This document shows, piece by piece, positions 2 to 4,971 of a stretch of DNA of 5,401 nucleotides. The notes under the pieces are model-generated. The model did not search any database, had not been told where the DNA came from, and worked only from the letters and a program-made list of their open reading frames with translations. A program made the translations under genes and the position numbers. Position 1 is the stretch's first letter, and each line of letters opens with the position of its first letter. Source of the stretch: Clostridia bacterium (lineage in GTDB: Bacteria > Bacillota_A > Clostridia > Oscillospirales > CAG-272); NCBI GenBank assembly GCA_017935805.1, contig JAGBGV010000263.1, forward strand, positions 1 to 5,401, in the 5' to 3' direction.

Positions 2-790
2 GAAGCAGGAATTGATGCCAAGGTGCTCAGAATGCAAGGGGCTAAGGACCCGGACGAGTACATAAAAAAGTACGGAGCGGACAAGTTCAGAGAGCTTATC
101 GAGGCAAGCCGCGGCAAATTCGAATTTATGCTTGACGGAATTCGTTCAAAGTATGATATGAGCATATCTGACTCAAAGATAAAAGCATTGTCAGAAATTT
201 GCGCTTATATAGCAGGAATACAGTCAAGCGTTGAGAGGGATATATATATTGATAAGACCTCTCGGGAGTTTGCGGTCGATATTAAAAGCATAAAGGCTGA
301 TGTTGACTCAAAGCGCAGACGAATTGCCAATGAAAACAGCAAAAAACGCAAGGGCGAGCTTATAAGAATAACATCAGGACTTGGAGACCGAGTAAACCCT
401 GATTTTGCAAAACAACCCAAGGGTGCCAGAATAGAAGAAGCGGTACTCGGAATGCTGTTTCTCCACAATGAGTATTTTTCGCACAGTGTGGACGGCAGAC
501 CTCTCGCGGCAGATGATTTTGTCACCTCTCTCGGTAAGAGACTGTTTGAATTTGCCCATGAGCAGATTGACAGCGGCGGATTTAACATCGGAATGCTGAA
601 TGAAAGCTTCACTCAGGACGAGGTGTCAAGAGTTTCACGCATGATGGTTGAAAGAAGCGAGCTGTCGGGTAATGATGAAAAATCCTTTGAAATCTACGTT
701 CGTTCCATGAGGGAAGAGAGCGAGAATGCAAAGGACGGAGAAATGTCTCTCGAGGATATCCTCAAGAAAAAACGCGGCAACAGCAATTAA
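2..790 (+). CDS. dnaG: DNA primase DnaG, C-terminal part (5' end outside window)
   Basis: DnaG makes the RNA primers for DNA replication and is recruited by the replicative helicase DnaB/DnaC. The window holds the last 262 codons; the frame is open to the left edge, so the GTG at 23 is an internal Val and not a start. Visible residues 1–25 (AGIDAKVLRM, then KDPDEYIKKYG) match the end of the TOPRIM catalytic core, where KDPDEY is a strongly conserved DnaG signature. Residues about 34–92 look like the short helical segment annotated as a DnaB-binding domain in primases. A basic linker (about 95–120, with KRRR and KKRK) leads to a C-terminal helical domain (about 143–240, beginning RIEEAVLGML) of the helicase-interacting type. 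The tail length fits a DnaG of about 600 aa. The gene ends in TAA 45 bases before a sigma factor gene, the classical dnaG–rpoD arrangement. No defects are seen in the visible part. Confidence 0.93.
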   Translation, partial: EAGIDAKVLRMQGAKDPDEYIKKYGADKFRELIEASRGKFEFMLDGIRSKYDMSISDSKIKALSEICAYIAGIQSSVERDIYIDKTSREFAVDIKSIKADVDSKRRRIANENSKKRKGELIRITSGLGDRVNPDFAKQPKGARIEEAVLGMLFLHNEYFSHSVDGRPLAADDFVTSLGKRLFEFAHEQIDSGGFNIGMLNESFTQDEVSRVSRMMVERSELSGNDEKSFEIYVRSMREESENAKDGEMSLEDILKKKRGNSN

Positions 791-835: not shown

Positions 836-1936
836 ATGGAAAATGAAAAAAAGGTCGACATGCAGGGGCTGATCGAAAAGGGGAAGTCCCAGGGTTCGCT
901 TTCAAACAGCGATGTAATGGAAGCAGTAGAGTTTGCAGGATATGATGTCGATCAGATCGAAAAGATCTACGAGACTCTTGAGCAAAGCGGAATTGAAGTC
1001 ACAAACTATATTGAAAATGACGGATTTGACGATGATGACGCGTCATCCGAGCTTGAAGATAATACTGATCTTGAAAAATATCTGTCAGATGACGGAGTAG
1101 CGATTGACGATCCCGTCAGAATGTATCTGAAGGACATCGGTAAGATACCTCTGCTTACTCCTGAGAGGGAAACTGTACTTGCAGAAAAGATAGCAGAGGG
1201 AGATGAGGTTGCAAAAAATGAGCTTGTAGAAGCCAACCTGCGTCTCGTTGTAAGTATTGCAAAAAAGTATGTCGGAAAGGGTATGTACTTCCTTGATCTT
1301 ATTCAGGAAGGAAACCTTGGACTTATCAAAGCGGTTGAAAAATTCGACCATACCAAGGGATATAAATTCTCCACATATGCAACATGGTGGATCAGACAGG
1401 CCATTACCCGCGCCATTGCTGACCAGGCGAGAACTATCCGTATTCCGGTACACATGGTTGAGACTATCCACCGCGTATCACGTACATCCCGTCAGCTCTT
1501 GCAGGAGTACGGTCGCGAGCCTACTATTGACGAGATAGCAGAAAAGCTTGGCATGAGCCCTGAAAAGGTGCGTGAGATCATGAAAACAGCACAGGACCCC
1601 GTATCTCTTGAAACGCCTATCGGTGAAGAGGATGACAGCCATCTCGGTGACTTCATTCCCGATGATTCCACTCCCACACCTGCGGAGGCAGTTTCATATC
1701 AGCTACTTCGCGAGCAGCTCAACAAGGTTCTCCACACTCTTACCCCCCGTGAAGAGATGGTGATCAAGCTCCGATTCGGACTTGACGACGGAAGAACAAG
1801 AACTCTTGAGGAAGTTGGTAAAGAATTCAACATTACACGTGAGCGAATCCGCCAGATCGAGGCTAAGGCTTTGCGTAAGCTGAGACACCAGAGCCGATCC
1901 AAGATTCTCAAAGGATTTCTTAACGATATAAACTAA
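836..1936 (+). CDS. rpoD: Primary sigma factor RpoD/SigA, first copy (canonical region 1.1)
   Basis: This is the housekeeping sigma-70 subunit of RNA polymerase, which recognises -35 and -10 promoter elements. The 366 aa are typical of a Firmicute SigA. Residues about 9–55 form a normal region 1.1 (LIEKGKSQG, then [15 protein letters not shown]), followed by an acidic linker (60–80). Region 1.2 starts at DDPVRMYLK (91). Regions 2.1–2.4 cover about 126–207, with [14 protein letters not shown] (178–191); Q188 and T191 correspond to E. coli Q437 and T440, which read the -12 base. Region 3 covers about 208–275, including the finger segment near HLGDFIPDD. Region 4 covers about 295–362, with the -35-binding helix [17 protein letters not shown] (334–350). 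The start is supported by GAGG at 826–829, six bases before ATG. It lies downstream of dnaG with no terminator between. Oddities: His172 where Tyr is usual (E. coli Y421), and HQSRS instead of HPSRS at 351–355. A second, similar gene follows 76 bases later. Confidence 0.96.
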
Positions 1937-2002
1937 AACAAATATTTTCGCAAATTAGGAAGACTCCGCGTAAATACCTTTCACCGCAAATTCATATTTT
2001 TT

Positions 2003-2007
2003 GGAGG
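2003..2007 (+). promoter_or_regulatory. Ribosome binding site deciding the start of the second sigma gene
   Basis: A perfect GGAGG lies five bases before the ATG at 2013. A longer frame could be opened at the TTG at 2001, but that codon touches this Shine-Dalgarno sequence and has no ribosome site of its own, so the TTG start is an artefact and ATG 2013 is preferred. Confidence 0.9.
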
Positions 2008-2012
2008 AAACA

Positions 2013-3125
2013 ATGTACGGTATCGACCCGGAAATGAAAAAGAAAGATATTGAAGAAGAGGTCATTGGTGACGAATCAGTGATCACGGTAACAGATGACT
2101 CATTTGCTGTAATTGACGATACAGATATTACAGAATCCGAAGGCCCGACAGAAGAAGATCTGATGGACATTATGGAGATTGAGCCTGAGGATGTTACAAA
2201 GCTTATTGACGCAGAAGAGCTTGATGACATTGACAGTGATGTTGAAAAGCTTGATAGCGCCGATGACATGGAAAAGGCACTTTCTCAGGAAGGTCTCATG
2301 GTGGACGACCCTGTAAGAATGTACCTTAAGGAGATTGGATCAATTCCGCTTCTTGACAGTGAAGAAGAGACTTATTATGCCAAGAAAATGGCGGAAGGCG
2401 ACGAAAATGCAAAGAACAAGCTGGTAGAATCAAACCTCCGTCTTGTTGTAAGTATTGCAAAGCGCTACGTTGGAAAGGGAATCTACTTCCTTGACCTTAT
2501 CCAAGAGGGCAACCTTGGTCTTATGAAGGCAGTTGAAAAGTTCGACTATACAATGGGATATAAGTTCTCGACATACGCAACATGGTGGATCAGACAGGCT
2601 ATCAGCCGTGCCATTGCGGATCAGTCAAGAACGATCCGTATCCCGGTTCATATGGTTGAGACTATACATAAGGTATCCCGCAGCCAGCTTCAGCTTTTAC
2701 AGAAGCTTGGACGTGAGGCTACATCGTCCGAGATCGCTGCTGATATCGGTATGAGTGAGGAAAAGGTCCGCGAGATCATCAAGATTTCTCAGGATCCCGT
2801 ATCTCTTGAAACACCAATCGGTGAAGCTGACGAGAGTCATCTTGGCGACTTCATTCCCGATGACAATACTCCCACACCTGCTGAGGCTGCATCTTATCAG
2901 CTTCTGCGTGAACAGCTGAACGAGGTGCTTCATACTCTCACACCCCGTGAGGAAATGGTGCTTAAGATGAGATTTGGTCTTGAAGACGGCAGAACACGCA
3001 CTCTTGAGGAGGTTGGCAAAGAGTTCAACATCACCCGTGAGCGTATCCGTCAGATTGAAGCAAAGGCTCTTCGTAAGCTCCGCCATCCCAGCCGTTCCAA
3101 GAGACTGAAGGACTATCTCGAATAA
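2013..3125 (+). CDS. Second primary-type sigma factor (RpoD paralogue with acidic N-terminus)
   Basis: A 370-aa sigma-70 family protein, paralogous to the gene just upstream. By hand alignment about 225 of 273 residues are identical from region 1.2 (DDPVRMYLK at 98) to the C-terminus, without gaps, and the region 4.2 helix ([17 protein letters not shown], 341–357) is identical, so it should read the same -35 element. Regions 2, 3 and 4 are complete and all reading is uninterrupted, which argues against a pseudogene. Residues 1–97 do not resemble the usual region 1.1. They hold 36 Asp/Glu against 6 Lys and no Arg. In the -10 reading segment, Ser198 replaces the usual Thr (E. coli T440), Ser205 replaces Ala (A447), and Met181 replaces a basic residue (R423). 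The start is ATG 2013 with GGAGG at 2003–2007. No terminator separates it from the first sigma gene, so co-transcription with dnaG is likely. It could be a second housekeeping sigma or a condition-specific group 2-like one; the sequence alone does not decide. Confidence 0.93.
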
Positions 3126-3209: not shown

Positions 3210-3235
3210 AAAACGCTTGACGTATTGAGCGTTTT
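3210..3235. repeat. Inverted repeat / hairpin overlapping the next promoter; possible weak terminator of the sigma operon
   Basis: AAAACGCT (3210–3217) and AGCGTTTT (3228–3235) are perfect reverse complements. In RNA the stem can extend inward by two G-U pairs and one A-U pair to an 11-bp stem with loop CGTA. The A-rich left and T-rich right flanks give it the look of a weak, bidirectional intrinsic terminator after the second sigma gene, 85 bases past its stop. The -35 box of the downstream promoter (3217–3222) lies inside it, so a repressor operator is an alternative reading. The symmetry is seen directly; either function is inference. Confidence 0.5.
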
Positions 3236-3245
3236 CGTGTAAAAT
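3217..3245 (+). promoter_or_regulatory. Sigma-A type promoter for the lipoprotein gene
   Basis: TTGACG (3217–3222) is separated by exactly 17 bases from TAAAAT (3240–3245), each one mismatch from the vegetative consensus TTGACA/TATAAT. The upstream stretch 3175–3213 is AT-rich and could help as an UP element. Transcription would begin near 3252, giving a leader of roughly 50 bases before ATG 3304. An imperfect TGGG...CCCA repeat (3261–3279) lies in that leader; its role is unknown. Confidence 0.75.
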
Positions 3246-3303: not shown

Positions 3304-4971
3304 ATGACTAAGAAGCTTATCAGCTTATTACTTGCCATGATAATGGTGCTTAGCATGTTTGCGGGCTGCTCTAAGGATGAGAGTTCCGAACCGGGTGATG
3401 AAACTGCAGACACTCAAGACAGTCAGCGCGTTGCTATGACACTTTCTCTCTGGCTTCCTACAGACGAAAGCACTACTGAGGAAGCAAAGGAGCAGGTAGA
3501 GGCTGCAATCAATAAAATCACACAGGCGAAATACGACACTGCTATCGAGCTTCACCTGATTCCTCGCGATGAGTACAAGGAAACAGTAGATGAAAAGATC
3601 GCAGCTGTTAAGCAGGCTACTGCTGACAAGAAAGCTGCTGAAGAAGCAAGAAAGAAAGCTCTTAAGAATAAAGGTCAGAAGGTGGAAGAAACAGTGGAGA
3701 CAAATCCCCCGGAAGAAACTGTTATTGACGAGCTCGGTATCGCTGTAAAGACATATCCTTCTATTGTTGATACACAGCTTGATATCTTCTATATCAGCGG
3801 ATACGATGCTTACTGTGAATATGCATGGGGAGACATTGCCGCAACTCTCGACGGAGAGCTCAGTGGTAACTCCAAGATCCTCAAATCTTATATTTACCCC
3901 ACATTCCTCAAGCCTATCTATGACTACGGTACATTCGCGATCCCGAATAACCGTCCTGTAGGTGAATACCAGTACCTGCTTATTAATAAGGAACTTGTAG
4001 ATATATACGACTATAACATTAGCGACCTCACATCTTTCCTCAGATCCAAGAACTTTATCGTCGATATTGGTAACCAGGGTCTTGAAGATGTCGTTCCGCT
4101 TCTCGCTCCCGTTGATGCTGCCGGTATGCTGTATTGGGGCGCTGACGGTGTATCCAGTGAATGGTCACTTATCAGTTCACAGCTTACAAGTGAGACAGAA
4201 TACTCCGATTCTCTTCCTCCGGAAAACGTACTTGATTCTACATATGTAAGTACTCTAAAAATGGTAAAAGAGCTTCAGGATCTTGGATATGTTGGCGACG
4301 GTACACTCAAGGAAGGACAGAGATTCGCAGTTGGCGTTGTAGCCGGCGACCCTGTATCCATTGCGGAATATGCTGATGAGTATTATATCAGCGTTTACGC
4401 TAACCCTGTATTTGACGAAGAAACAATCTACGACGCAATGTTTGCGGTTTCCGAATATTCCAAGGACATCTCCCGTTCAATGGAGATCATCACATGCATC
4501 AATACCGATAAAGAACTTAGAACAGTTCTCCAGTACGGTGTAGAAGGTATCCATTGGGAATATGACGATCCCGATACAAAGGAAACCATCTCTATTATCA
4601 GCGACGATTATAAGATGGAGCTTCATGAGACCGGTAATGTATTTATGACATATCCCGGTGAAGGTCTTCCTATGGAATATTGGGATGCATATCTCATTCA
4701 GAACCAGGAAGCAGTTTCAAGCCCTTACATTAAGATGCCTGACTACTTCAGCGAAGAAAACGGAAATCTTGATCTTCTTGAAGAGTACGAAAAGCTCTGC
4801 AAAGAGTACAAGGCAAAGATCGATGCTGTAACCGGCGAAAACTTCAACGCTGAGATCAAGGCGCTGCTTGCTGAGCTTCAGAACAATGAAGTAATGCAGA
4901 AGCTTCTTGACGAAGAAGATGAAGATTCTCTCATCAGCTTCTATAATAAGTGGCACGACAGCGTATATTAA
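3304..4971 (+). CDS. Lipoprotein resembling a family 1 extracellular solute-binding protein, substrate unknown
   Basis: A 555-aa secreted lipoprotein, probably anchored on the outer face of the membrane. Residues 1–22 are a lipoprotein signal: KK at 3–4, a hydrophobic core, and the lipobox FAGC with lipidated Cys22, followed by an acidic Ser/Asp/Glu spacer. The rest resembles ABC-transporter solute-binding proteins of Clostridia: MTLSLWLPTD (45–54) as the first strand, LDIFYISGYDAY (159–170), FAVGVVAGDP (341–350), and RSMEIITCINTDKELRTVLQYGVEG (391–415, a stretch typical of large clostridial binding proteins). Residues about 92–148 are an unusual Lys/Ala/Glu-rich, coiled-coil-like and then Pro/Glu-rich insertion. 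The C-terminus is helical and acidic (DEEDED, 536–541). ATG 3304 has AGGAGG at 3290–3295, eight bases upstream. The gene ends with three consecutive in-frame TAA codons (4969–4977). It has its own promoter and terminator, so it is likely monocistronic, and no permease genes are next to it in this window. Oligosaccharide binding is a common role in such families but is not shown here. Confidence 0.82.
   Translation: MTKKLISLLLAMIMVLSMFAGCSKDESSEPGDETADTQDSQRVAMTLSLWLPTDESTTEEAKEQVEAAINKITQAKYDTAIELHLIPRDEYKETVDEKIAAVKQATADKKAAEEARKKALKNKGQKVEETVETNPPEETVIDELGIAVKTYPSIVDTQLDIFYISGYDAYCEYAWGDIAATLDGELSGNSKILKSYIYPTFLKPIYDYGTFAIPNNRPVGEYQYLLINKELVDIYDYNISDLTSFLRSKNFIVDIGNQGLEDVVPLLAPVDAAGMLYWGADGVSSEWSLISSQLTSETEYSDSLPPENVLDSTYVSTLKMVKELQDLGYVGDGTLKEGQRFAVGVVAGDPVSIAEYADEYYISVYANPVFDEETIYDAMFAVSEYSKDISRSMEIITCINTDKELRTVLQYGVEGIHWEYDDPDTKETISIISDDYKMELHETGNVFMTYPGEGLPMEYWDAYLIQNQEAVSSPYIKMPDYFSEENGNLDLLEEYEKLCKEYKAKIDAVTGENFNAEIKALLAELQNNEVMQKLLDEEDEDSLISFYNKWHDSVY

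Follow-up and report, generated by a model that had tools for sequence, protein, structure and literature searches.

An old tandem duplication of rpoD behind dnaG in a Clostridia genus, with a Group-2-like second copy and a remnant lacking region 4

Primary sigma factor genes are usually single, and the origins of Group 2 sigma factors have mostly been reconstructed from very old events. Sigma-derived domains that do not act as sigma factors are also known as 'sigma factor mimicry'. PhyR, for instance, mimics a sigma factor of the extracytoplasmic function type, titrates an anti-sigma factor and carries a receiver domain. Here, a stretch of 5,401 nucleotides from a gut Clostridia bacterium (contig JAGBGV010000263.1; hereafter the window) is described, in which two sigma factor genes, A and B, follow the DNA primase gene dnaG in tandem. 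Primary (Group 1) factors of the SigA/RpoD type possess all regions including 1.1, stand in the order dnaG-rpoD and pass the RpoD equivalog model, and A resembles them in each respect. B shares with them regions 1.2 to 4 and the -35 helix, but lacks region 1.1, scores under the equivalog cut-off and is altered in region 2.4 and the sigma finger. PMC4598750 describes Group 2 sigmas as close to Group 1, devoid of sigma1.1 and non-essential. Like the members of that group (RpoS, cyanobacterial SigB-E, Streptomyces Hrd), B is near the primary sigma and without region 1.1; unlike them, its gene immediately follows that of the primary sigma and seems to share a transcript with it. A second SigA-type factor in a clostridium is SigA2 (CD1498) of C. 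difficile, which PMC7438776 assigns to group 1 and places under a SigH-type promoter. By locus number it does not lie beside sigA1 (CD1455). Among the open papers listed in searches, judged mostly by title and abstract, none reported tandem rpoD in Clostridia or sigma remnants of the type described below.

Both genes in the window are complete, intact, co-directional and of primary type. A (836..1936, forward strand) encodes 366 amino acids with Pfam regions 1.1, 1.2, 2, 3 and 4, and B (2013..3125, forward strand) encodes 370 amino acids with regions 1.2, 2, 3 and 4 only. The gap of 76 bases between them (1937..2012, forward strand) holds no terminator-like site in a terminator scan and folds no better than shuffled versions of itself. 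From region 1.2 onward, residues 91-362 of A and 98-369 of B are identical at 225 of 272 positions (83%), next to the 82% over 273 residues originally estimated by hand; a longer BLASTP alignment gives 241/322 (75%). The -35 helices are identical and lie within 30 identical residues of region 4.2 (2994..3083 in B, forward strand). The third codon position differs at 111 of the 225 identical residues, and the nonsynonymous and synonymous divergences between the copies are dN 0.25 and dS 2.4, the latter near saturation. The layout, the identical helices and the differing third positions of the original prediction are all reproduced by these counts. Against the RpoD equivalog NF006666, A reaches 572.3 bits, barely above the curated cut-off of 572, and B remains below it with 529.1 bits; both pass the RpoD C-terminal model TIGR02393, B with 392 bits (cut-off 354). 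The N-terminal parts are unalike, since the B protein of the window has no match to Pfam region 1.1. Moreover, B has a strongly acidic N-terminus, whose 97 residues carry a net charge of -30 (-20 for the 90 of A), and residues 1-58 have a predicted local distance difference test score below 50 in a structure model of modest confidence (mean 70.1).

The differences between the copies are patterned. Region 1.1 (PF03979, E 0.01) is matched in none of 19 B proteins, of which 17 are from the genus including the window and two from the genomes G030 and G137, and in 16 of 20 A, so that the model also misses four A. All four Pfam regions 1.2, 2, 3 and 4 are matched in 19/19 B. Residues are given in E. 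coli numbering anchored on WWIRQA, and the roles assigned to these positions in promoter contact and core binding are those we take them to have. In region 2.4 (2583..2645 in the window, forward strand), where B of the window has Ser at the equivalents of both T440 and A447, the T440 position is Ser in 16/19 B and Thr in 21/21 A and 29/30 single copies, and the A447 position is Ser in 13/19 B and Ala in all A and singles. The S467 position is Gln in all 19 B, and also in 6 of 30 singles. In the sigma finger (2817..2855, forward strand), the second acidic residue is replaced by Ala in 15/18 B, including that of the window; it is Glu in 22/22 A and 30/30 singles. The loss of region 1.1, which did not figure in the original prediction, and the class-specific changes in region 2.4 and the finger contradict its picture of B as a plain second housekeeping sigma. 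Its claim of shared promoter specificity survives for the -35 helix only, because B lacks region 1.1 and is changed in region 2.4 and the finger. Regions 1.2 to 4 closely related to Group 1 and the absence of region 1.1 both belong to the definition of Group 2; B is, by its sequence, a Group-2-like paralogue and not a spare copy.

Among the 25 genomes grouped in the genus, A was seen in 22, and a second gene is present in all 22: an adjacent B in 18, a separate B in one and a remnant in three. The 18 tandem pairs each lie on one contig, and in five of these genomes (G205, G208, G211, G216, G217) a contig end falls inside a gene. G217, which is represented by coordinates only and shows a third match elsewhere on a different contig, was left out of the tree. 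The short second gene of G208 was considered as a half-way form and rejected, as the contig end cuts it. In G201, A and B are close to the ends of two different contigs. G204 and G212 gave no match, and in G215 a B-like gene at the end of a contig is all that was seen. This gene (L145:4239-5096) is divergent and cut by the contig end; WW is retained and the -35 helix can be recognised (TRERVRQIE), but a sigma finger cannot. The expectation that a single copy is usual agrees with a contig scan for relatives of A, in which 77 of the best 80 loci listed, some of them short, have a single primary-sigma place. The other three are L001 and L028, with A and a short second gene and among the closest A relatives of the 80, and L002, with a full pair.

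In the main tree (110 rows, 276 columns), A of the genus together with G030/G137 forms one clade of 24 rows (Shimodaira-Hasegawa-like approximate likelihood ratio test, SH-aLRT, 99), and B of the genus forms one clade of 20 rows including G215 (SH-aLRT 96). Forcing the second copies of G030/G137 to group with B raised the likelihood above that of the free search. Because of the paired clades and this gain, one duplication most likely predates the genus and the G030/G137 lineages. On this phylogeny the tandem duplication of rpoD behind dnaG preceded the divergence of the genus, with both products retained, and it probably also preceded the split from the sister lineage G030/G137. The dN/dS ratio (omega) is 0.027-0.051 within A and within B wherever computable, indicating purifying selection; between the window and G203 it is 0.027 for A and 0.034 for B. 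Omega values of 0.034-0.042 for B of the window against G203 and G189 led to rejection of a pseudogene status. The tree and dN/dS checks that had been proposed for the pair were thereby carried out, and both uphold an old duplication with two selected copies, in synteny that is kept where contigs reach. Over 16 genus genomes, core identity averages 0.919 for A and 0.788 for B, with B the less conserved copy in 117 of 120 pairs. By this measure, A is the more conserved copy genus-wide, as expected of a primary sigma.

In G001, G005 and G209, A is accompanied by a remnant; full-length B was not seen in these assemblies, which may be incomplete, and this is the one hint that B could be dispensable for growth as in Group 2. 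Remnants lie directly behind rpoD at L001:1383-2096, L028:7128-7880 and L140:3209-3937 (minus strand). The family comprises these three genus genomes and 32 further clusters, and 34 remnant-type clusters, two of them short, occur among the best 120 of 416 matches. Outside the genus, an order sample of 394 genomes gave 22 matches at E 1e-48, with G005 as the sole remnant; the other 21 have open frames of at least 363 residues, the ordinary rpoD length. Descent of the remnant from B is suggested by its position and by the best tree (97). Region 4 (PF04545) is absent from 25/25 remnants, W433 and W434 are lost in 35/35, Q437 and T440 are also lost, and the charge of regions 2.3-2.4 is reversed from +5 to -5. 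D403, Q406 and E407, which we presume to bind core polymerase, are kept. The loss thus follows function and is not evenly spread, and the combination of -10 recognition residues and region 4 that marks a functional sigma is not found. Thirty-seven columns are invariant across 25 remnants. The remnant is an intact open reading frame (ORF) with omega 0.17-0.19 over three loci, again purifying selection, which suggests that its role has changed and that it is not decaying. A broken copy in related strains had been named as a refutation of the pair; three congeners do have a truncated second gene, but one that is an intact, selected reading frame. Like PhyR, the remnant is a sigma-derived protein not acting as a sigma; unlike PhyR, it has its origin in a primary-type sigma, whose core-binding helix it retains, and a Pfam search found no receiver domain in it. 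Some members of the remnant family end in a C-terminal tail rich in His and acidic residues.

Tandem rpoD is also not a one-off arrangement, as it recurs in the family and elsewhere in the class. In a family sample of 196 genomes, 180 have a match to B at E 1e-30, and in 36 of them there is more than one; the rpoD locus was read in 29 of the 36, and the other seven are known by coordinates only, several being pieces at contig ends. Sixteen genomes have two full-length tandem copies, which together with G005 (A and remnant) makes at least 17 of 180. In a class sample of 291 genomes, 277 match at E 1e-100 and eight have two such matches. The copies are adjacent in six of these eight (6/277), always directly behind dnaG, and not adjacent in G805 and G842. 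Separate origins were assessed by approximately unbiased (AU) tests on a 51-row tree related to the main one. A single second-copy clade of genus B, G030/G137 and G145/G041 was rejected (p 3e-5), as was one of genus B, G030/G137 and the divergent copies of G063/G116/G158 (p 0.003); for the divergent copies of the G063 and G084 groups, a shared origin was not rejected (p 0.075). On the AU-tested tree, tandem rpoD arose three or more times within the family. Gene conversion could give the same picture as separate origins, above all in G145/G041, whose two copies cluster with each other and are almost the same throughout regions 2.2-3.0.

In the other tandem lineages, the divergent copy is often altered near region 2.4 or the finger. 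For instance, the first copies of G084/G171/G129 carry W433C, R436K and T440N, and those of G063 (L168:4830-5873, minus strand), G116 (L163:1617-2660, minus strand) and G158 (L169:3236-4264) have a three-residue gap at about 448-451, between regions 2.4 and 3.0. The divergent copy of G008 keeps region 2.4, which speaks against a strict rule. The loss of region 1.1 is not universal either, since three of eight divergent copies from other lineages still have it. TRERIR of region 4.2 is kept in every aligned row displayed for tandem lineages. Across 29 tandem loci, the first and second genes are -8 to 128 bases apart, and A and B within the genus 25-128 bases, measured to the longest-ORF start, with G216 unreadable.

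We give an even chance to the reading that B competes with A for core polymerase, the remnant being an end point that no longer reads promoters. The genes dnaG, A and B would form a single transcription unit in which A and B are made together, given the size of the gap and the missing terminator-like site. B would form a second holoenzyme directed to much the same -35 elements, opening and leaving promoters differently from that of A, and its competition for core would temper or bias housekeeping transcription. This competition step is suggested by the remnant at the B slot, which keeps the core-binding helix and not region 4. On the remnant branch, most -10 contacts are likewise lost or reversed, and an interaction with core, or with another sigma partner, would be the function most likely still under selection. 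The remnant is thus best read as a putative core binder that would be unable to read promoters.

Several points weigh against competition for core. A promoter inside A may exist. Conservation of the core-binding helix is no proof that core is bound, and a leftover DNA contact of the remnant may persist, as it keeps F427 in 33/35, H455 in 31/35 and E458 in 33/35; the idea that every -10 contact is lost was rejected on these residues. The AU test does not reject grouping of the remnants with A (p 0.47), remnants of known position come from three genomes only, and no dnaG was seen before A on the G001 contig. A has derived residues too, such as Gln at A352 (Pro in 17/18 B and 30/30 singles), and change has therefore occurred in both copies. 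Furthermore, in the three pairs formed by the window, G203 and G189, B is the better conserved copy (core identity 0.967-0.986 for B and 0.906-0.971 for A; dN between the window and G203 0.027 for B and 0.039 for A), and faster evolution of B was rejected as a general rule owing to this reversal.

More tentatively, and with somewhat lower probability, the rpoD locus behind dnaG may be a repeated birthplace of sigma-derived regulators, the remnant being an anti-sigma made from a sigma. Tandem copies would recur there, often lose region 1.1 and drift in the -10 and finger parts, and the -35 helix would stay. The remnant would fill the sigma-binding site of the polymerase with a DNA-repelling surface and inhibit or store core, as an anti-sigma encoded directly behind the sigma that it opposes.

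Alternatively, B could resemble RpoS or C. difficile SigA2 in being specialised for stress or stationary phase, with distinct promoters and its own regulation through an internal promoter or regulated decay, competition with A being a side effect. This is possible but unlikely. The sequence part of the Group 2 definition fits B, and sigA2/CD1498 of strain 630 is labelled 'SigA, stationary phase' with a SigH-type promoter in PMC7438776. However, the short A-B gaps across the genus and the absence of a terminator-like site in the window favour joint transcription, the -35 helix of B is unchanged, and a specialist sigma would not obviously become a protein without region 4. Dosage, one of the roles first offered for the pair, in which the second copy merely raises the amount of primary sigma, is improbable. 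It would account for the high identity of A and B and their identical -35 helix, and dosage or gene conversion may fit G145/G041 because their copies group together and share regions 2.2-3.0. The absence of region 1.1 from every B tested, the class-specific residue differences, the unequal conservation of A and B across the genus and the remnants in three congeners all argue against dosage alone. More improbable still is decay, with B heading for loss and the remnants retaining no particular function: the lower conservation of B genus-wide, the three truncated second genes and the divergent B of G215, with no recognisable finger, would agree with it, but the low omega of B in the window and of the remnants, the number of remnant-type clusters, their invariant columns and the functional pattern of loss would not. 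An assembly or binning artefact can practically be dismissed, for although most named relatives are metagenome assemblies, the adjacent pair occurs in 18 genus genomes, flanked by the same genes as far as the contigs extend, pairs are present in other lineages and the synonymous divergence of A from B is close to saturated; assembly error, which had been named as a refutation of the pair, was rejected on the first of these grounds.

The window contains further features. The 3' part of dnaG (2..790, forward strand; PF10410 E 3e-12, TIGR01391 partial), whose start lies outside the window, matches the dnaG of L028 at 56%. GGAGG at 2003..2007 (forward strand) is the likely ribosome binding site of B, whose start was taken as the ATG at 2013; the mechanical ORF call is longer, from a TTG at 2001. 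The end of the gap (1965-2013, CCGCGTAAATACCTT..CACCGCAAATTC) is conserved between the window and G203, and partly in G189. TGTCGGGAAATGACA or near variants are common to the A-B gaps of five loci (L002, L131, L134, L137, L142); it may form a small hairpin, and in two cases its folding was not clearly structured (z 0.05, -2.3). Downstream, the scan gave a sigma-70-type promoter-like site, TTGACG-17-TAAAAT (3217..3245, forward strand), before the next gene, and a similar one, TTGACA-17-TACAAT, is visible at L028 and L001. The dnaG-A-B operon therefore probably stops before that gene, which encodes a putative lipoprotein of 555 amino acids (3304..4971, forward strand), a conserved downstream neighbour and synteny marker. 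A Pfam search of this protein found nothing at E 0.001, and nearly every family locus that was read has a relative of it behind rpoD. The opposite strand carries a weakly GDSL-like fragment (22.1 bits, below the Pfam cut-off), and an Rfam search of the window gave nothing at gathering cut-offs.

The locus offers younger and independent rpoD duplications that can be compared at one place with kept gene order. In the remnant family, nature would have separated core binding from promoter binding, which would provide a direct test of whether sigma competition for core is itself selected.
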